NCBI RefSeq assembly: GCF_014117265.1
Contig: NZ_CP059833.1
Coordinates: 1,333,069-1,397,068 of the forward strand
From: Corynebacterium hindlerae
GTDB taxonomy: Bacteria; Actinomycetota; Actinomycetes; Mycobacteriales; Mycobacteriaceae
Direction: 5' to 3'
DNA length: 64,000 nucleotides
Part shown: positions 17,721 to 62,824 of the stretch, piece after piece
How the letters are laid out: each line of letters starts with the position of its first letter
Numbering within the stretch: the stretch's first letter is position 1
The notes under the pieces: generated by a model
The model's database searches: none
What the model saw: only the letters and a program-made list of their open reading frames with translations
What the model was told of the DNA's origin: nothing
Made by a program: the position numbers and the translations under genes

Positions 17721-18830
17721 GTGCCACTGAACCTGGAACGTAACGATTCCACCCACCGTGCTGTGGTGCAGCTCTACCAGCTGGTGGAGGACTCCCTTTT
17801 GCGCCGCATGGGCGAGTCGGTGGAGCGTCTGATTGAAGCTCCCGATTGGGAGCGCATGGTGACGTTGGAGATTATGCGTCTGCGTCGTGAAGCGATGAAA
17901 GCGGCGGGGATGATTGATAGTGTCCTGCCTAGGCTCACGGAGAAAGCGTTGGAAGAGGCGTTGATGATCGGCGCGACCGACGCTTACGCCGACATTAAGG
18001 CCGTGTTGGGTGAGGAAGCCGCCGCAACAGCGTCGCTTAGCAGCGCGGTGAATCATGCGGGCATGTACGCGCTCGCTGGGGAGATGCAGGGCGATCTGGC
18101 GAAACTCAGGCATTCGGTGCTGAGGGCTGCTGATGATATGTACAGGCGGACTGTGCAGGTGGCAGCTGCTAAAACAGTGACGGGCGCTCAGGCTATTGGC
18201 GGTGCGTGGCGTGATGCTGCTAGGCAGATGGCGCGCGAAGGCCTCACGGGGTTTGTGGATGATAAGGGCCGTAAGTGGAAGCTGGACACGTACGCGGAAA
18301 TGGCGACCAGGACGGCGACGAACCGGGCGCACATGTTGGGGCATTCGCAGGCAATGATCGACCACGGCCTTGATCTCATTGTCGTGTCCAGCCACAGTAA
18401 CCCTGCGCCTCAGTGTGCCCCGTTTGAGGGCAAGGTGTTGTCCCTGACAGGCAAGCATTCGGGCAGGTCGAAGATGGATAACCTTGTGGATGGTACGACG
18501 GCGATTGTTGATGTGAAGTGTTCGCTAGATGAAGCTATTGTTAAAGGTTTTCGTCACGTGAATTGTAAGCACACGTGGTCTGCCTACGTCCCCGGCACGC
18601 GTCTCCCCCAGCCTGAGCCTGACCCCGATCATGAGGGCTACAAGGCCACACAGAAGCAGCGCTACTATGAGCGGAAAATTCGTGAGTGGCGTCGGGCTGA
18701 GGCGGTCGCTGTGGATAAACAATACAAGGACGAAGCACGCGCGAAAATACGGCACTACCGGCAGCTAGCGCAACAAAACGCGGACGATAACGGCCTGCGA
18801 CGCAAGAAAGAACGAGAAACCTTGCGCTAA
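17721..18830 (+). CDS. Minor head protein (phage minor capsid protein 2 type)
   Basis: A 369-residue protein. The C-terminal half has the minor capsid 2 layout: DTYAEMATRTATNRAHMLGH, then LIVVSSHSNPAPQCAPFEGK, then GFRHVNCKHTWSAYVPGT. The last 80 residues are a highly charged helix. Such proteins bind the portal inside the procapsid and are homologous to the SPP1 gp7/Mu F group. GTG 17721 follows AGAGGGGGC. It is the last head gene before the 2.5-kb RNA and control region. Confidence 0.85.
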   Translation: MPLNLERNDSTHRAVVQLYQLVEDSLLRRMGESVERLIEAPDWERMVTLEIMRLRREAMKAAGMIDSVLPRLTEKALEEALMIGATDAYADIKAVLGEEAAATASLSSAVNHAGMYALAGEMQGDLAKLRHSVLRAADDMYRRTVQVAAAKTVTGAQAIGGAWRDAARQMAREGLTGFVDDKGRKWKLDTYAEMATRTATNRAHMLGHSQAMIDHGLDLIVVSSHSNPAPQCAPFEGKVLSLTGKHSGRSKMDNLVDGTTAIVDVKCSLDEAIVKGFRHVNCKHTWSAYVPGTRLPQPEPDPDHEGYKATQKQRYYERKIREWRRAEAVAVDKQYKDEARAKIRHYRQLAQQNADDNGLRRKKERETLR

Positions 18831-18858
18831 AAATTGTCTCATATGCCACATTCCATGC

Positions 18859-18864
18859 TACACT
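18859..18864 (+). promoter_or_regulatory. Possible promoter of the tRNA cluster
   Basis: TGCTACACT at 18856-18864 reads as an extended -10 element; TTGTCT at about 18834 is a weak -35 with a 19-base spacer. It lies just before the first hairpin and tRNA-like gene. A moderate match only. Confidence 0.3.
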
Positions 18865-18874
18865 TTACTGGTCA

Positions 18875-18911
18875 GGGTGTTTGCGGATCACCTTCCCCAA
18901 AGCAAACACCC
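18875..18911 (+). other. Strong hairpin at the start of the tRNA cluster
   Basis: A perfect 10-bp stem (GGGTGTTTGC with GCAAACACCC) closes a 17-base loop. No U-run follows, so it is not a normal terminator. It lies six bases before the first tRNA-like gene and could be a processing or stability element. Confidence 0.5.
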
Positions 18912-18916
18912 AACTA

Positions 18917-19006
18917 TCCCTTGTGACTGAGTAAGGCTTAAGGTTGCGGGCGAAGCTGGCTCGTAGATCCGTTGAGATCACGCAGGTTCAAATCCTGCCG
19001 AGGGAA
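18917..19006 (+). tRNA. tRNA-like gene with long variable arm, identity unclear
   Basis: A 90-base element with a complete acceptor pair (TCCCTTG/CGAGGGA), a canonical T arm (GCAGG-TTCAAAT-CCTGC), a variable arm closed by GATC/GATC, and a stem CGGGC/GCTCG in the anticodon position. Size and variable arm fit a Ser/Leu-type tRNA. The loop GAAGCTG lacks U33, so the anticodon cannot be assigned with confidence (AGC by position, GCT by shift). It may be degenerate or may decode in an unusual way. Confidence 0.5.
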
Positions 19007-19196
19007 CAGGCCACCGGCGACGGCGGGTGGCTGGGAGTGACAGAACAAAAGGCCGTGTTCGCGGGGCCGAAGATTGTGCAGACTGCCCTTAGCGGGGAAC
19101 GAGGCTTAGCCGCCTGATAGGTCTGGCCGGGTGCGGTACTCATAGATGACCGTGGACAAGCCCGTGGCGGTAAAAAGCAATCCGCCCTCCCACCTT

Positions 19197-19270
19197 GTGC
19201 CCTTAGCTCAATTTGGTAGAGCGCTGGTCTCCAAAACCAGTGGTTGCAGGTTCAAGTCCTGCAGGGTGTG
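19197..19270 (+). tRNA. tRNA-Trp(CCA), phage encoded
   Basis: A 74-base cloverleaf: D arm GCTC/GAGC, anticodon arm CTGGT-CTCCAAA-ACCAG, T arm GCAGG-TTCAAGT-CCTGC, acceptor GTGCCCT/AGGGTGT with three G-U pairs. Anticodon CCA reads UGG. Phage tail and lysis genes here are Trp-rich. Confidence 0.9.
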
Positions 19271-19271
19271 C

Positions 19272-19342
19272 TGTCTTGGCCTGTGGTCAGGCGCGTGTGG
19301 GTGACCCCCACATGTTTCCGGTTCGATTCCGAAGCAAGGCAA
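19272..19342 (+). tRNA. tRNA-like gene, possible Val(GAC)
   Basis: Acceptor TGTCTTG/CAAGGCA pairs fully. The anticodon arm TGTGG-GTGACCC-CCACA would show GAC (Val). The D arm is very short (CCT/AGG) and the T stem (TCCGG/CCGAA) has a C-A mismatch plus one extra base before the acceptor. It begins two bases after tRNA-Trp. Possibly decaying or structurally atypical. Confidence 0.45.
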
Positions 19343-19439
19343 AACCAGGCAGTCCAGCCAGACTGTCGAACCATGCAAGCCCGGACAGCATGTAAAAGGC
19401 GAAGAGCCGGGCCGTACTAACAGGACGCTATCTGTGGTC

Positions 19440-19482
19440 GCGTGAGTGGTATCCCACCCGGGTTCAAGGCCCGGGCACGCAC
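19440..19482 (+). other. T-arm plus acceptor-like element without the rest of a tRNA
   Basis: A canonical T arm (CCGGG-TTCAAGG-CCCGG, 19458-19474) is preceded by a variable-arm-like hairpin (GTGG/CCAC) and enclosed by GCGTG (19440-19444) and CACGC. No upstream sequence pairs with the 3' acceptor strand in the normal place, so D and anticodon arms cannot be drawn with confidence. Confidence 0.4.
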
Positions 19483-19572
19483 GAGGCTAAAGGTAAGACG
19501 CGCAAGCCCCCTTTAGCTCTATCGAGGAACGTCAGCGCCAGCATCGCAAAAGACTGGCAGCCCGGCAGGACA

Positions 19573-19612
19573 GCGCTACCGGCAGACACCTTGGCTCGAG
19601 TCCAAGGAGCGC
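19573..19612 (+). other. Second isolated T-arm/acceptor-like element
   Basis: T arm CTTGG-CTCGAGT-CCAAG enclosed by GCGCT (19573-19577) and AGCGC (19608-19612). Upstream, GCCAG/CTGGC with a 12-base loop stands where an anticodon arm would be, but the loop is too large and no 7-bp acceptor partner is found. Confidence 0.35.
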
Positions 19613-19783
19613 ACAGCACGAAACCGTTACTAGTGCGGTGGTTGTGCGAGCTGGTCTATGCGTCCCGTTAGTAGTCCACCTGAGTGTGGAACACGCTAAC
19701 CGCCTCTAGCCAGCGACCGGCACTGTTGATGCACTGCATCCCAAGCGGGTGTAGATAGCCTCTCAACACTGCCACCAAAGATT

Positions 19784-19825
19784 CCACCCCGCCAATAACT
19801 AGCCCCCCGGGCTTAGGCGGGGTGG
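19784..19825 (+). other. Strong nested hairpin before tRNA-Gln
   Basis: Perfect 10-bp arms CCACCCCGCC and GGCGGGGTGG enclose a second stem AGCCC/GGGCT. There is no U-run. It ends five bases before tRNA-Gln and could separate or process the transcript. Confidence 0.5.
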
Positions 19826-19830
19826 TCACA

Positions 19831-19902
19831 TTTCCCGTGGTGTAACAGGCAGCACCTGAGAGTTTGGTTCTCAGAGACTTGGTTCAAATCCAGGCGGGAA
19901 AG
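19831..19902 (+). tRNA. tRNA-Gln(TTG), phage encoded
   Basis: A 72-base tRNA: acceptor TTTCCCG/CGGGAAA pairs fully, anticodon arm TGAGA-GTTTGGT-TCTCA gives TTG, T arm CTTGG-TTCAAAT-CCAGG. Position 32 is G rather than a pyrimidine, otherwise the form is standard. TTG decodes CAA, a codon used often by the early phage genes. Confidence 0.85.
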
Positions 19903-20097
19903 CATGAGTCGCGATCACAGAGACCAGCGGGGCGGGCATGCAAGCCCCTATTGGGTGAGCGCTGATGGACACGCCGACCACACGCGCAAGTGCAGGCGCT
20001 TATGCCGACGTCGCGCTAAGGAAGCGTTGCGACGTGGTGAAGAACCTGAGCCGAAGTACCTGAGCCGAAGTACCCGGTAGAGACTGAATGGTTTGAC

Positions 20098-20113
20098 TAG
20101 AACAAGTGTTCTA
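20098..20113. promoter_or_regulatory. LexA (SOS box)-type operator
   Basis: TAGAACAAGTGTTCTA is a perfect 16-bp palindrome with the GAACA-N2-TGTTC core of actinobacterial LexA sites. It overlaps the end of TTGACT (20093-20098), a good -35 hexamer, and lies 11 bases before the first possible start of the next small gene, so DNA damage would be expected to derepress transcription here. Confidence 0.65.
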
Positions 20114-20123
20114 AGTTGCGGTA

Positions 20124-20336
20124 GTGTTGTCCACCATGGAACCTAGACTCACCGGCATGAACACCAACACATACCAATTCCCCAAGCCGCTCGAAGTAGT
20201 GGACTTCGAAGAACTCATTAAGGACGAAAACGGCGAACCAATCCCCTACATCGCCTGCAGCATCCCAGACGACCCAAGCGACCACTACGACGCCGACGGC
20301 AACCCACTACCAGACGATGACATCAACCTGCCATAG
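20124..20336 (+). CDS. Small acidic protein downstream of a LexA-type site
   Basis: A frame of up to 70 residues, acidic in its C-terminal half (EELIKDENGEPIPYIACSIP, then DDPSDHYDADGNP). Starts at GTG 20124, ATG 20136 and ATG 20157 are possible; none has a good binding site, so a leaderless or very short-leader transcript is conceivable. The operator just upstream suggests DNA-damage control. No family is recognised. Confidence 0.5.
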   Translation: MLSTMEPRLTGMNTNTYQFPKPLEVVDFEELIKDENGEPIPYIACSIPDDPSDHYDADGNPLPDDDINLP

Positions 20337-20343
20337 TCCAATC

Positions 20344-20393
20344 AGCCACTTACAGCCACTTACATCCACTTACGGTCACATGCGGTCACATAT
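20344..20393. repeat. Five 10-bp direct repeats (iteron-like)
   Basis: Units AGCCACTTAC (twice), ATCCACTTAC, GGTCACATGC and GGTCACATAT follow without gaps, all with the core (G/T)CCAC or GTCAC. A 10-bp period puts every unit on the same DNA face, as in binding arrays of initiators or repressors. Confidence 0.65.
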
Positions 20394-20423
20394 GCACCTG
20401 CACACCCCCACAAGTGGGTAAAA

Positions 20424-20444
20424 ATATCCACACGATTATCCACA
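20424..20444. promoter_or_regulatory. Two DnaA-box matches in A+T-rich DNA
   Basis: TTATCCACA (20436-20444) is an exact DnaA-box consensus; ATATCCACA (20424-20432) differs at one base and lies 12 bases upstream in the same direction. A+T-rich DNA follows (20441-20480). Together with the iterons just upstream this resembles a small replication origin. Confidence 0.5.
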
Positions 20445-20484
20445 AAAATATACGTCCGAATAATCGCCTTGATTATTGTTGCAA

Positions 20485-20635
20485 GTTGCAGATATGCAAC
20501 ATGAGCAGTATCAACAGTTGCGGATAGCTTTGCAGCGTATGTGCATTATGTCAGTTATGGCGGTTATGGAGTGTCAAACCGCTAAATACAGCTCATAACC
20601 GAAACGTTAATTACTAACGTAACTCGCGTTATACT
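20485..20635. promoter_or_regulatory. Palindromes and possible promoter in the control region
   Basis: GTTGCA-gata-TGCAAC (20485-20500), a doubled GTTATGG (20550-20570 region) and ACGTTA-attac-TAACGT (20604-20620) lead to TATACT at 20630-20635, a good rightward -10 element without a clear -35. A 29-codon ATG frame starts at 20640 but has no binding site. The layout suits repressor operators over a promoter firing against the leftward gene downstream. Confidence 0.4.
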
Positions 20636-20641
20636 CAAGAT

Positions 20642-20696
20642 GAAACAAAAAGAAAGCAGCACCCTACCCCATGCTTGCAGGCGCGAGGTAGAGTGC
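20642..20696 (-). terminator. Terminator of the leftward 49-codon gene
   Basis: On the minus strand a 10-bp stem (arms at 20687-20696 and 20659-20668, one G-U pair, 18-base loop) is followed by a U-rich run. It lies just after the stop of the gene at 20704. Confidence 0.7.
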
Positions 20697-20703
20697 CACG
20701 AAA

Positions 20704-40405: not shown

Positions 40406-40547
40406 GTGCCCCACCAGTGCGACACCAAACCGCACCACCACTAAAACCACTGTGCTGCACTTTGTGCCCCACCAACACAAAAACCACCCCACGCCGGCCA
40501 GCTGATAAAATCAGCTAAGCACGAGGTGAAGCGGTATTTTCACTTGG
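40406..40547. other. Right attachment-site flank, first copy
   Basis: Contains GTGCCCCACCA twice (40406, 40464) and AGCTGA-TTTTA-TCAGCT on the minus strand (around 40501-40517) just beyond the tRNA 3' end. The same elements recur next to the second tRNA-Arg copy. They could be arm-type integrase sites and a small tRNA terminator. Confidence 0.5.
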
Positions 40548-40620
40548 TGCGCCCGGAGGGATTCGAACCCCCAACCTTCTGATCCGTAGTCAGATGCTCT
40601 ATCCGTTGAGCTACGGGCGC
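40548..40620 (-). tRNA. tRNA-Arg(ACG), copy 1
   Basis: A 73-base tRNA (acceptor GCGCCCG/CGGGCGC, anticodon loop CTACGGA in CTGA-loop-TCAG, T arm GGGGG-TTCGAAT-CCCTC-type) with encoded CCA (40545-40547). Identical to the copy at 41806. The prophage lies on its 3' side, the usual orientation for integration into a tRNA gene. A promoter-like TTGTTA-N18-TAGAGT is found 33-62 bases upstream (minus strand, 40653-40682). Confidence 0.95.
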
Positions 40621-41724: not shown

Positions 41725-41805
41725 GTGCCCCACCAACAAAAACCGCCCCACATCAACCAGTTGATAAAATCAACTAAGCACGAGGTGGGACGGCATTTCA
41801 CTTGG
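41725..41805. other. Attachment-site flank, second copy
   Basis: GTGCCCCACCA (41725) and AGTTGA-TTTTAT-CAACT (minus strand) stand in the same order and spacing to tRNA-Arg copy 2 as in the first copy. The two flanks are about 80% alike and their hairpins differ by paired changes (C/G to T/A), so the hairpin is conserved. Confidence 0.5.
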
Positions 41806-41878
41806 TGCGCCCGGAGGGATTCGAACCCCCAACCTTCTGATCCGTAGTCAGATGCTCTATCCGTTGAGCTACGGGCGC
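41806..41878 (-). tRNA. tRNA-Arg(ACG), copy 2
   Basis: Identical in all 73 bases to copy 1 and also followed by encoded CCA (41803-41805). The 5' flanks of the two copies differ from the first base outside the tRNA. It lies 45 bases from tRNA-Ser in the same direction and is probably the chromosomal original. Confidence 0.95.
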
Positions 41879-42100: not shown

Positions 42101-43006
42101 CTAACGAATTGTCACCTGGCGGGACTTGATGTTCTCCAGGGCGCGGCGCGCTTCTGGGGAGAGGTCTTCGTCGGCTTCGATGGAAGCGGCGATCTTCTTG
42201 TCCAGTTTTTCCAGGAGCGGGCCGTAGGTTTCGTATGCGACGTCTACTGGCAGGTCCCAGACGGGGACGGCGATGCCGTGGGTGCGGAAGACTCCGGCGA
42301 ACTTGGTGTCTTCGCCAAGATCAAGTGCGCCGGCTGCGGAGATGCGGGCGAGGGCGCGCATGAGTTTGTCTTCGTCGTCGCGACGAACCCAGCGGATGTG
42401 GGCTTTTTCGCCTGGGTCGATCCACCATGCAACACCGTCAAAAAAACCAGTGACCTGGTAGGACGGCATGATGGTGTCGTTGGCTGCCTGCAGGGACTGG
42501 GCGGTGGCGGCGTCGAGCTGGGCATCGGATGGGAGCCACCAGTTGAAGTCTTCGCGGGCTTGGACGTCGAGGGTGCCGGAGGCGTCGAGAAGTTCGGTGA
42601 GTGGGGGCTGGGAGCCGTCGTTGGCGGTGGAGGCCAGGGTGGCGCCCGGCTTGGCGTCGCGGGCCCATGCGAGGGCGTAGGCGAGGTCACGGCCCGGGTT
42701 GTGGGTGTGCGACTGGGTTTGCAGGGCGACATAGGCGGTGCCGTCTTCTTGCACCATGCCACCAGCGGCGCCTGGGAGGACGGTGGCGACGTAGACGTCC
42801 CGGTCGAATCCCTTGACTGGGAGCTTCGCGAATGCGGAAGGCACGAATTCCTGGAGCGCCACGAGGTCGGCTTCCATCGCCAGTTCGCCGTATGGGCGTG
42901 GGTCGCGTTCCAGTGCGGCGCGCTCAGCGGCGCGGGCAGCAAGCTTTGCTTGACGACGGCTCATGCCCTCCGGCAGTTGCTCGTCCTTCTTTTTCTTTTT
43001 AGCCAT
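42101..43006 (-). CDS. DUF5926 family protein
   Basis: A 301-residue protein (MAKKKKKDEQLPEGMSRRQA). The basic start, KLAARAAERAALERDPRPYG and LVALQEFVPSAFAKLPV are hallmarks of this actinobacterial family of unknown function, which I know as a conserved neighbour of tRNA genes in corynebacteria. AAAGGAC precedes ATG 43006. It reads toward the tRNA genes. Confidence 0.85.
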   Translation of the reverse strand: MAKKKKKDEQLPEGMSRRQAKLAARAAERAALERDPRPYGELAMEADLVALQEFVPSAFAKLPVKGFDRDVYVATVLPGAAGGMVQEDGTAYVALQTQSHTHNPGRDLAYALAWARDAKPGATLASTANDGSQPPLTELLDASGTLDVQAREDFNWWLPSDAQLDAATAQSLQAANDTIMPSYQVTGFFDGVAWWIDPGEKAHIRWVRRDDEDKLMRALARISAAGALDLGEDTKFAGVFRTHGIAVPVWDLPVDVAYETYGPLLEKLDKKIAASIEADEDLSPEARRALENIKSRQVTIR

Positions 43007-60271: not shown

Positions 60272-62824
60272 ATGAAGAATGCGATGAGAACGATATCGCT
60301 GCGCAACCTCGCAGCCCATAAACTCCGCCTGGGCCTAACCTTGTTAGCAGTCGTGCTGGGAACTGCTTTCATTGCGGGCTCGAATATGCTCTCGGCGAGT
60401 ATGTCCAATAGCTTCGAGGAGATCACGAAGTCCACTTACGGTTCGATCGATCTTCAGGCTTCCCCTAAGGATCCGGCCTCCGCGAGGATTCCGCTCACAG
60501 TGCTCGAGGATTTCCGCTCCAGCCCGCTGATCTCAGCTGCGGACGTCGAGGCTCAAAACCCCAACGTGGTGGTCGCTGGCCCCGATAAGAAAATGATCTC
60601 GAGCGGAGGGGCCCCTTCTATTGCCATGCCACAGGCTGCGGACGGCACATTCGTCGGCGATGTGGCCACGGTGAAGGAAGGTTCCCTCCCCACCGAACCA
60701 GGCCAAGCTGCCATCAACGCCACCGCTGCGGAGAAAGCGCAGATCACGATTGGCGATGAGGTCACCATGGTCTCCGCCACGCAACGCAATACTTATCGGA
60801 TCGTCGGGATTTACGACACCGACATGGCGGTCGGCGGCTTCGTCGGGCTGCTCATCCCAGAAGCCGACTACCTCGCGAACTTCACCGACGGCGAGCACGT
60901 ATCAGCCATCTCCCTCGCTGTTACGGGAGATGTCTCCGATAGCCGGTCCACACTGGAGTCCCAGTACCCAGAACTCATGTTCAAAACAGGGCAGCAGCTT
61001 GCCGACGACATGAACCGCGACATCAAGGACTCCCTCGCATTCATGAACTATTTCCTCTGGGCTTTCGCCGCCATCGCGTTGCTCGTAGGGTCCTTCATCA
61101 TCTCCAACACTTTCAGCATGATTATCAATCAGCGGCTTCGAGAGTTCGCGCTGCTACGAAGCCTCGGGGCCAGCCGAGGGCAGATCACCCGCACCGTGGT
61201 TTTCGAAGCAATCGTGGTCGGACTCATCGGCTCTGTGCTGGGAATTTTCGCCGGTGTAGGAATCACCAAAGCGATTTATGCTGTGATGGATTCGCAGGGA
61301 CTCGGTGTTCCCGACGCCGGTCTCACGATCGATGCCGCCTCGATCATTGCCCCACTAGCAGTCGGCATCGTGGTCACAGTGTTTGCTGCCTGGGCGCCTG
61401 CCCGACGTGCCGGCCAAGTACATCCAGTCCAAGCTATGCGCTCCGGCGACCAAACGTCGGCCGATTCCCTCAAGGCCCGTACCGTTGTTGGCGCTGTGTT
61501 TCTCCTGGCCGGTGCTTTGGCCGCGGCCATAGGCGCCGCATTCGAAAGCGTCGGAAGCACCCAGAGTCGTGCCATTATCGTTGGCATTGGCACATTCGCG
61601 CTGGTCCTTGGCCTGTGGCTTGCCGGTCCGGCCCTATCGATTCCCTTTGTCGGATCTATTGGGCGAATAGTCGGAGTGCCATTTGGGAACGTCGGCAAGC
61701 TTGCTGCTACCAATTCCCGGCGCAATCCGCGTCGCACCGCAGCCACCGCCTTTGCCCTGATGTTGGGCCTGATGCTGGTCTCCGCCATCGGCATGATGGG
61801 TTCGACGATGAAAAGTAACGTCAACGAACTAGTCGATAACAACTTCTCTGCTGACTTTGTGGTGAACAAGCCACAAGGACTACCCATTTCTTTACCCTTG
61901 GACATCGTTGATCGGGTGTCCCACGTCTCCGGCGTCGAACACGCCAAGCCTCTCTACTTGACCCCAATCTCGGTGGGTGCCCCGCCCGAGAACCCCATCA
62001 GAGTGGACTTTTTCGGTACCTTCGATGGCGAACTCACAGACTCCGTCAATGTCCAGATTCTGTCTGGCGACGCCAACCTAGCCAACCGCGACGGGATTTT
62101 GCTGGACGAAACCACCGCGAAGAAGCACCAGGTAGCCGTCGGAGATAGTATCACCGTCTTCTCCAATAACGGAGACTCCACAGACGTGCCAGTGACCGGA
62201 ATTTTTAAGCCCAACGTCGCAGTGGGCAACGGAGTAATCTCCACGCAGAGTGCGCTCACCCTTGTGCCTGAGCAACAGTTGCAGCTCATCAATGTCCTCA
62301 TCGATGCGAAGGCAGGCACAGACCTCGATCAGCTTCGCACAGATCTGGAAAATGCCACGGCTGATGACCTGGTCGCCGTAGTGCAGGACCATGAGGATCT
62401 CAAGGGCACAGTCGGCCAGCAAATCACGGTGATGCTCAACATCCTGTACGCGCTGCTCGCACTGTCCGTGATCATCGCGGTGCTGGGCATCATGAATACC
62501 CTTGCGCTGTCCGTCTCGGAGCGACGCCAGGAGATTGGCATGCTCCGCGCCGTAGGTATGCAGCGCCACCAGGTGTCTCGAATGATTCACCTCGAGGCGA
62601 TCGTCATTGCCCTTTATGGCGCGGTCATCGGTTCCCTTATCGGACTCGGTCTGGGCTGGGCATTCATTAAAACCCTCTCCGAACTGGGCCTCTCCACCAT
62701 TTCCGTGCCGTGGCTCCAAGTGGGCATCGTTGTTGTGGCGTCCGGCTTAGTCGGACTGGTTGCCGCCTTCCTGCCAGCGCATGGCGCTGCAAAAACTAAA
62801 CCGCTGGAGGCTATTGCGGAGTAG
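60272..62824 (+). CDS. FtsX/MacB-type permease (cassette 2)
   Basis: An 850-residue permease with the same order as permease 1: LGLTLLAVVLGTAFIAGSNM, LREFALLRSLGASRGQITRT, LAATNSRRNPRRTAATAFAL and ERRQEIGMLRAVGMQRHQVS. Membrane parts are close to permease 1; the outside domains (residues about 50-230 and 530-720) differ more, so the two cassettes probably act on different partners. Confidence 0.9.
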   Translation: MKNAMRTISLRNLAAHKLRLGLTLLAVVLGTAFIAGSNMLSASMSNSFEEITKSTYGSIDLQASPKDPASARIPLTVLEDFRSSPLISAADVEAQNPNVVVAGPDKKMISSGGAPSIAMPQAADGTFVGDVATVKEGSLPTEPGQAAINATAAEKAQITIGDEVTMVSATQRNTYRIVGIYDTDMAVGGFVGLLIPEADYLANFTDGEHVSAISLAVTGDVSDSRSTLESQYPELMFKTGQQLADDMNRDIKDSLAFMNYFLWAFAAIALLVGSFIISNTFSMIINQRLREFALLRSLGASRGQITRTVVFEAIVVGLIGSVLGIFAGVGITKAIYAVMDSQGLGVPDAGLTIDAASIIAPLAVGIVVTVFAAWAPARRAGQVHPVQAMRSGDQTSADSLKARTVVGAVFLLAGALAAAIGAAFESVGSTQSRAIIVGIGTFALVLGLWLAGPALSIPFVGSIGRIVGVPFGNVGKLAATNSRRNPRRTAATAFALMLGLMLVSAIGMMGSTMKSNVNELVDNNFSADFVVNKPQGLPISLPLDIVDRVSHVSGVEHAKPLYLTPISVGAPPENPIRVDFFGTFDGELTDSVNVQILSGDANLANRDGILLDETTAKKHQVAVGDSITVFSNNGDSTDVPVTGIFKPNVAVGNGVISTQSALTLVPEQQLQLINVLIDAKAGTDLDQLRTDLENATADDLVAVVQDHEDLKGTVGQQITVMLNILYALLALSVIIAVLGIMNTLALSVSERRQEIGMLRAVGMQRHQVSRMIHLEAIVIALYGAVIGSLIGLGLGWAFIKTLSELGLSTISVPWLQVGIVVVASGLVGLVAAFLPAHGAAKTKPLEAIAE

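Follow-up and report, generated by a model that had tools for sequence, protein, structure and literature searches.

Intergenic signals in the shape of a tRNA are known in principle, since tRNA punctuation and tRNA-like processing signals exist in mitochondria, as set out in passages of PMC9181182. Small tRNA-like modules also serve RNA maturation in eukaryotic long non-coding RNA, namely the mascRNA and menRNA of MALAT1 and NEAT1 (Rfam family RF01684; parts of PMC12941219). The model ribonuclease P (RNase P) minihelix of the AT1 type is a synthetic molecule made of an acceptor stem, a T stem and a T loop with no D or anticodon arm (excerpts of PMC11143913). The start-associated sequences (SAS) of Cluster K mycobacteriophages, their extended SAS, and the intergenic repeats of Microbacterium phages are, as described in parts of PMC3203893 and PMC7302621, letter-conserved short motifs or inverted repeats that recur in a single orientation in gaps a little upstream of start codons. 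We analyzed a 64,000-nt stretch of the 2.68 Mb genome of Corynebacterium hindlerae (contig NZ_CP059833.1, positions 1,333,069 to 1,397,068; referred to here as the window) and, within a prophage at positions 18831-20123 of it, an RNA-rich region carrying two small elements, A and B, which consist of the acceptor and T-arm half of a tRNA. We refer to such elements as mini-tRNAs.

The mini-tRNAs share the acceptor stem, T stem and T loop of the AT1 minihelix, including a natural 12-bp version in phage Oaker, but are natural, multi-copy and intergenic, are mostly 11 bp long and contain an 11-nt linker with a D-loop-like GG. Like the mitochondrial signals they would release coding and non-coding RNAs; unlike these they are anticodon-less minihelices, the cutting of which we infer. 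The RF01684 model gave a weak match to the tRNA-Gln of the region and none on A or B. Whereas the SAS and Microbacterium repeats are conserved in their letters, the mini-tRNA is conserved in shape, with stems that change freely and a T loop. A further parallel is provided by RNAs C and D, two stable RNAs of the T4 tRNA cluster. A natural phage minihelix of this kind looks new. We consider it about an even chance that we are dealing with an RNA operon punctuated by tRNAs, in which A and B are natural acceptor/T-arm minihelices cut by tRNA-processing enzymes.

The two mini-tRNAs and the hairpin that follows A are located as follows.

19440..19480, + strand: mini-tRNA A (model R1, 24.9 bits, E 3.7e-4)
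19481..19518, + strand: hairpin directly 3' of A (by folding, about -13 kcal/mol)
19573..19612, + strand: mini-tRNA B (model R1, 53 bits, E 8.4e-12)

Both elements have a 5-bp acceptor, a 6-bp T stem, a T loop (CTCGAGT in B) and an unpaired tail AC. The linker is ACCGGCAGACA in B and is 12 nt long in A, one base longer than in the family model R1. This covariance model was built from 30 divergent rows and contains no window sequence, and the E-value of B in 64 kb rules out chance for this element; the next-best match in the window after A and B was the T arm of tRNA-Trp (E 0.37). The initial annotation had described two elements with a T arm and acceptor-like ends and without a normal anticodon arm, and this is what A and B proved to be. 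Neither was reported by ARAGORN or by any Rfam family at E<=5, and neither has the canonical tRNA cloverleaf. A stricter descriptor recovered A and missed B, the loop of which is CTCGAGT.

Relatives of A were found in two other genomes of the genus, at 84-87% identity over 61 nt in G072 and over 46 nt in G093, with 11 of 11 pairs kept in each. A hairpin directly 3' of A is present in the window and in both relatives, and its sequence differs among them. The G072 copy of A scored 23.4 bits with R1, and the same genome also carries B (51.4 bits). A search of phage records with positions 19345-19830 gave 105 records, 83 from Streptomyces phages and 19 from Mycobacterium phages. In the 25 of these that were listed, all Streptomyces phages, the match covers B (83-88% identity) and no feature is annotated there; in the phage examples fetched, the match to B lies in gaps between small genes.

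To define the family, instances were collected in two pattern scans, one of viral contigs (at least 120 stretches, 80 of which were used) and one giving 36 bacterial-contig stretches (11 from Actinobacteria, 22 from Bacteroidota and 3 from other groups, judging by their titles), for a total of 169 instances, 137 of them unique. The collection pattern fixes only GGCANACA and the T loop, the invariance of which therefore carries no meaning, and leaves the tails and the variable pairs free. The shared structure has five acceptor pairs, a linker with a D-loop-like GGCA, six T-stem pairs and the T loop. Each of the nine variable pairs (five acceptor, four T-stem) is formed in 127-135 of the 137 unique instances as compared to 55-101 after shuffling, and several paired positions show all four Watson-Crick pair types. 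These counts cover all unique instances, while the 30 rows of alignment A1 were picked at <80% identity and at least 9 of 11 pairs; in this alignment 97.9% of cells pair (58.9% shuffled) and the covariation score is 0.948; shuffling lowers it to 0.181, and sliding the partners to no more than 0.199. The mini-tRNA family is real and conserved. The D-loop-like GG of the linker could dock on the T loop.

These results bear on one of the two explanations first offered for the region, that it holds the remains of decaying phage tRNA genes, for which an absence of covariation in the odd elements among relatives had been expected. Heavy compensatory change was found in the family of B. Decay is rejected for A and B because B matches a family with compensatory base changes, present in many phages, and A fits it weakly and is kept in two further genomes. 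There are two full-length odd tRNA-like genes in the region, with weak or no tRNA score and no relatives found here, which do suit decay; as an account of the region as a whole we nevertheless give it hardly any credence.

The family apparently has not been described as an RNA family. When six loci with 15 listed elements were searched against Rfam 15 at E<=1, three matches were returned and none recognized the family. One candidate, tmRNA, was rejected, as its match of 13.2 bits (cut-off 47) overlapped one T arm of one element. No description of the mini-tRNA was found in searches confined to one open-access library, which did not extend to preprints.

The ends of the elements resemble those of tRNA precursors cut by RNase P. 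Of the substrate features of this enzyme, G at +1 is present in 136 of the 169 instances, and directly after the acceptor stem an unpaired purine (158/169) and a C (152/169) resemble R73-C74 of tRNA. A G at +1 favours RNase P. CCA is absent from the mini-tRNA tails. Among the elements the linkers differ and the acceptor plus T arm persists; a 12-bp stack is found in some elements of the phages Rope and Oaker, and one Oaker element is linker-free, a 7+5 = 12 bp hairpin with a T loop. According to passages of PMC4919913, RNase P measures the acceptor/T-arm stack from the elbow; RNase Z also clamps on to the elbow, and CCA repels it. The elements are inferred to be cutting marks because they keep the acceptor/T-arm half with G+1 and the unpaired R-C, and because both enzymes recognize the elbow.

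Placement was determined in four phages (Rope, Yosif, Triste and Oaker), for which annotated stretches were used, omitting the Rope match at 60915 (outside the stretch), a partial Rope match at 42492, and phage LittleE, which has three R1 matches, one of them partial. Thirty of 30 matches were on the coding strand and 29 of 30 were intergenic, where 15-18% of the sequence is intergenic. There are 40 gaps that measure 40 nt or more, and 29 of them contain an R1 element; among the 11 remaining gaps the same acceptor/T-arm fold with other linkers is present in seven and missing in four. A descriptor in which stems and linker are free, and in which the loop TTCRANN and the R-C tail are required so that its hits cannot test loop or tail, found 13, 9, 6 and 9 elements in the Rope, Yosif, Triste and Oaker stretches, respectively, covering 36 of the 40 gaps by coordinates. 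It found none on the opposite strand, and 0.0 were expected from 10 Markov copies per sequence and strand.

A wider placement set was drawn from viral and bacterial contigs and consisted of the 121 unique instances with sufficient room around them, with 605 random places and 121 opposite-strand positions as controls. The stop codon of a frame spanning 40 codons or more lies within 20 nt upstream in 88 of the 121 (79/605 random, 28/121 opposite strand), with the acceptor starting 5-9 nt past the stop codon in 55 of the 121. A start codon with a Shine-Dalgarno-like motif follows 30-60 nt downstream in 60 of the 121, compared to 40/605 at random and 3/121 on the opposite strand. The proportion lying inside an open frame (elements 85/121, random 540/605, opposite strand 105/121) has little meaning in high-GC DNA. 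The 40 nt downstream of the element fold on average at -10.2 kcal/mol as compared to -7.3 kcal/mol for mononucleotide-shuffled sequence (n 136).

This placement is open to more than one explanation. In the four phages the distance to the next start codon has a median of 45 nt and a small spread (36-53 nt in 25 of 30), and this, together with the enrichment of start codons in the wider set, is in keeping with a 5'-leader structure which is left uncut and in which a stable elbow-shaped fold before the start codon would shield the mRNA or aid translation start. We regard such uncut leaders as a possible but rather unlikely account, as they leave unexplained the conserved unpaired R-C and G+1, the retention of the tRNA acceptor/T-arm domain across many different linkers and the occurrence of the elements in the seemingly untranslated RNA array of the window. 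The short distance from the stop codon, on the other hand, together with tails lacking CCA, which would suit the RNase Z behavior described in parts of PMC4919913, is compatible with elements that provide a tRNA-like 3' end for the upstream mRNA by RNase Z cutting, CCA addition and an exonuclease block. In long gaps, however, the element is found near the downstream start (42, 42, 47 and 113 nt past the stop in Yosif and 134 nt in Rope), and a 3'-end function is considered improbable.

The initial annotation had also proposed that the odd elements imitate part of a tRNA, either as substrates for tRNA-handling enzymes or as decoys for such enzymes or for tRNA-targeting defences. The first of these fits A and B best, with cleavage itself conjectural. 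Decoys or sponges would account for the retained T loop and elbow-like features and for the copy number (6 to 13 per stretch in Rope, Yosif, Triste and Oaker, and 3, one of them partial, in LittleE), but they have no need of a fixed position, and this role is hard to reconcile with elements which in other phages hold a fixed place between stop and start codons. Lacking an anticodon arm, they would also offer nothing for anticodon nucleases to cut. We therefore rate decoys as very unlikely.

Cutting by tRNA-processing enzymes would work as follows. A single prophage transcript would carry the manA RNA described below, the two tRNAs and the two tRNA-like genes, along with mini-tRNAs A and B and the hairpin that comes after each of them. 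RNase P would cut on the 5' side of the tRNAs and mini-tRNAs, and RNase Z possibly on the 3' side, and in the window these cuts would divide the RNA operon and free manA and the other pieces. In other actinophages, cuts at intergenic mini-tRNAs would split the polycistronic mRNA into units, such that the upstream message would end a few nucleotides past its stop codon and the downstream message would start with a hairpin, some 45 nt ahead of its start codon, that would protect it.

The other features of the region, all on the + strand, are as follows; the sequence between the second tRNA-like element and A, and that between the hairpin of A and B, is unassigned.

18870..18912, + strand: strong hairpin at the start of the array (-19.4 kcal/mol, z -4.05, equalled by 0 of 200 shuffles)
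18917..19007, + strand: full-length, odd tRNA-like gene with a long variable arm (ARAGORN tRNA-Ala(agc))
19010..19196, + strand: divergent manA RNA (RF01745, 52 bits)
19197..19271, + strand: tRNA-Trp (cca) (ARAGORN; Rfam 63.7 bits)
19274..19341, + strand: second tRNA-like element (four stems by folding, -27.3 kcal/mol, z -1.72)
19778..19827, + strand: very stable hairpin after B and before tRNA-Gln (-28.5 kcal/mol, z -4.35)
19831..19903, + strand: tRNA-Gln (ttg) (ARAGORN; Rfam 44.1 bits)
19904..20080, + strand: possible 58-codon gene (by translation; its ATG starts at the base next to tRNA-Gln)

What was first reported for this array was confirmed. All six T arms that had been claimed are on the + strand, with loops starting at 18987, 19251, 19322, 19463, 19595 and 19883, and the - strand has one weak T-arm motif. 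As the remaining 62,707 bp of the window contain 22 such motifs on both strands, about 0.45 would be expected in the region. The two proper tRNAs, Trp and Gln, were called by both ARAGORN and Rfam; tRNA-Gln was absent from the fast-filter list of Rfam and scored 44.1 bits with lax filters. The two full-length odd tRNA-like genes were also recovered. The first scored 31.2 bits with the Rfam tRNA model (cut-off 29; fold z -1.81) and, as had been noted, lacks U33, the loop at the anticodon position given by ARAGORN being GAAGCUG and the same loop appearing in the fold. The second was not called as a tRNA by ARAGORN, nor by Rfam at E<=5. Sequence searches with either gave T-arm matches to tRNAs and no further relatives, and these two genes may be products of decay. 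The strong hairpins reported at the array start, after A and before tRNA-Gln are present. The manA RNA and the 58-codon frame had been overlooked; manA accounts for much of the sequence that had been left unexplained, and could not have been recognized by reading the letters alone. Taken together, the initial interpretation was partly supported.

manA RNA was first described in potential 5' untranslated regions (UTRs) of marine, cyanophage and gamma-proteobacterial sequences and is a riboswitch candidate (parts of PMC2864571). The copy in the window matches RF01745 over the full length of the model (1-192 of 192, 52 bits, E 6.7e-12 with Rfam and lax filters), and an alignment with two viral-contig copies showed that it retains the GGGAGUGAC core and the last manA hairpin. 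It differs from those described in its setting, as it fits between the tRNA-like gene at 18917-19007 and tRNA-Trp. Similar arrangements were found in phage P1201 (40.9 bits, flanked by tRNA-Arg and a + strand tRNA-Gly) and in the Ceetrepovirus records Zion, Darwin, Kimchi1738, C3PO and Stickynote (37.1-47.2 bits, flanked by tRNA-Trp and tRNA-Ser). In all seven records the match spans model positions 1-192 (E 6.7e-12 to 3.6e-6), and its last base is either the first base of the tRNA that follows or the one preceding it. With a tRNA directly 3' in each, none of the seven has manA as the 5' UTR of a protein gene. That manA is flanked in these records by tRNAs, or by a tRNA-like gene and a tRNA, is counted in favor of the tRNA-punctuated operon.

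With stricter search filters, manA was found in one of 242 genomes of the genus, that of the window itself, and in two of 396 genomes of a phylum sample, the second being G495 (35.7 bits). Present in the window, P1201 and Ceetrepovirus, tRNA-boxed manA seems to be a Corynebacterium phage arrangement; the idea that manA generally adjoins tRNAs is ruled out by the 80 listed viral-contig loci considered below. Since other manA-bearing phages were tested and lack the element, manA and the mini-tRNAs do not travel together.

A number of observations weigh against the cutting of A and B in a tRNA-punctuated operon. In the mini-tRNAs R-C is followed in most cases by U or G; position 75 is not C and a full RCC is lacking, and in nearly all members of the 45-column family the stacked helix is 11 bp and not the 12-bp acceptor/T-arm stack of an RNase P substrate. 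The steady distance to the start codon would equally suit an uncut translation or stability element. Folded alone, A and B are unexceptional (z -2.04 and -1.26), and the G093 relative of A scored 14.1 bits (E 0.36). The family context of a stop codon upstream and a start codon 30-60 nt downstream is not found at A and B, as no start of a listed frame lies near either; with no start codon about 45 nt after them, the mRNA context of other phages is therefore inapplicable in the window. The context is likewise absent from loci of <45% GC, where a stop lies within 20 nt in 4 of 18 and a start follows in 1 of 18. No sigma-70-type promoter was found in 18600-20700. As to manA, all seven records fall below the RF01745 gathering cut-off of 55.2 bits. 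Among the 80 listed of at least 120 viral-contig loci with the exact manA signature (60 of the 80 with >300 nt on both sides), none has an ARAGORN tRNA within -700 to +900 nt, and the fetched G495 locus contains no tRNAs. P1201, Zion, Darwin, Kimchi1738 and C3PO gave at most partial T-arm matches to R1 and have no mini-tRNA.

Several further observations concern the manA loci. In P1201 a 270-nt stretch which is gene-free by annotation (L004:4207-4476) is flanked by tRNA-Tyr and tRNA-Arg and may be another structured RNA; its matches were itself, in two records, and 28 nt in three Rhizobium phage records. In P1201 (L004:4735-4809), Zion, Darwin and C3PO (L162, L163 and L165) some or all tRNAs are annotated opposite to the strand given by Rfam and ARAGORN. 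By eye, a -35/-10-like pair is visible immediately before several of the manA RNAs at 12 viral-contig loci (L005-L016), and a second hairpin GACCTAAGATGCAA...GGGCAGATGGTC lies downstream of some.

Copies of the mini-tRNA in low-GC or Bacteroidota sequence were noted at L188, L201, L215, L231, L233 and L249 by eye and at L295, L300, L308, L313 and L314 by title, and those in loci of <45% GC may serve another purpose. Within the genus, R1 matched at E<=1e-4 in 19 of 242 genomes with stricter search filters, some of the matches being on plasmids. In 296 phylum genomes it matched only the genome of the window, a weak negative because just 21 candidates per genome were scored. Plasmids with a mini-tRNA and hairpin (L344, L345, L346 and others) amounted to 17 records, 14 from Corynebacterium, two from Rothia and one from Winkia; of the 15 listed, 13 are 76-86% alike over 103-110 nt, and the two that match best do so at repA. 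In Corynebacterium sp. MSK041 (L335 and L312) a terminator-like hairpin with a T run was seen by eye directly after the mini-tRNA.

The array sits between the minor head and scaffold (weak match) genes of the prophage, with portal and major head also among the flanking genes. The minor head gene had no homologue in viral contigs, and a similar gene was present in 13 of 242 genus genomes, that of the window included; the 13 fetched loci (L127-L139) had no tRNA within about 1.5 kb. In G093 the array is about 4 kb from its minor head gene, beyond the flank of about 1.5 kb that was examined. In both the window and the G093 prophage a reading frame opens at the base after tRNA-Gln by the ARAGORN bounds, and once the tRNA is trimmed at its 3' end the mRNA would therefore have next to no leader. 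The - strand carries two equally scoring tRNA-Arg(acg) genes where the phage genes end (40545-40620 and 41803-41878), possibly an attachment-site duplication.

More broadly, and with somewhat less than even confidence, we propose that actinophages mark gene gaps with many anticodon-less mini-tRNAs per genome, at which host RNase P would split transcripts at almost every gap into units with a 5' hairpin, and that Corynebacterium prophages reuse these marks alongside whole tRNAs for the release of non-coding RNAs, manA among them. With the covariance model R1, many gene gaps of actinophage genomes that now lack annotation can be annotated, and the placement of manA speaks against its being purely cis-regulatory in one phage group at least. 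If the proposal is correct, manA in these phages would be a free-standing RNA and not a riboswitch, the mini-tRNAs would provide natural minihelix substrates for studying the elbow-to-cut ruler of RNase P, and a large group of phages would share a structure-coded system of message cutting by a host ribozyme.

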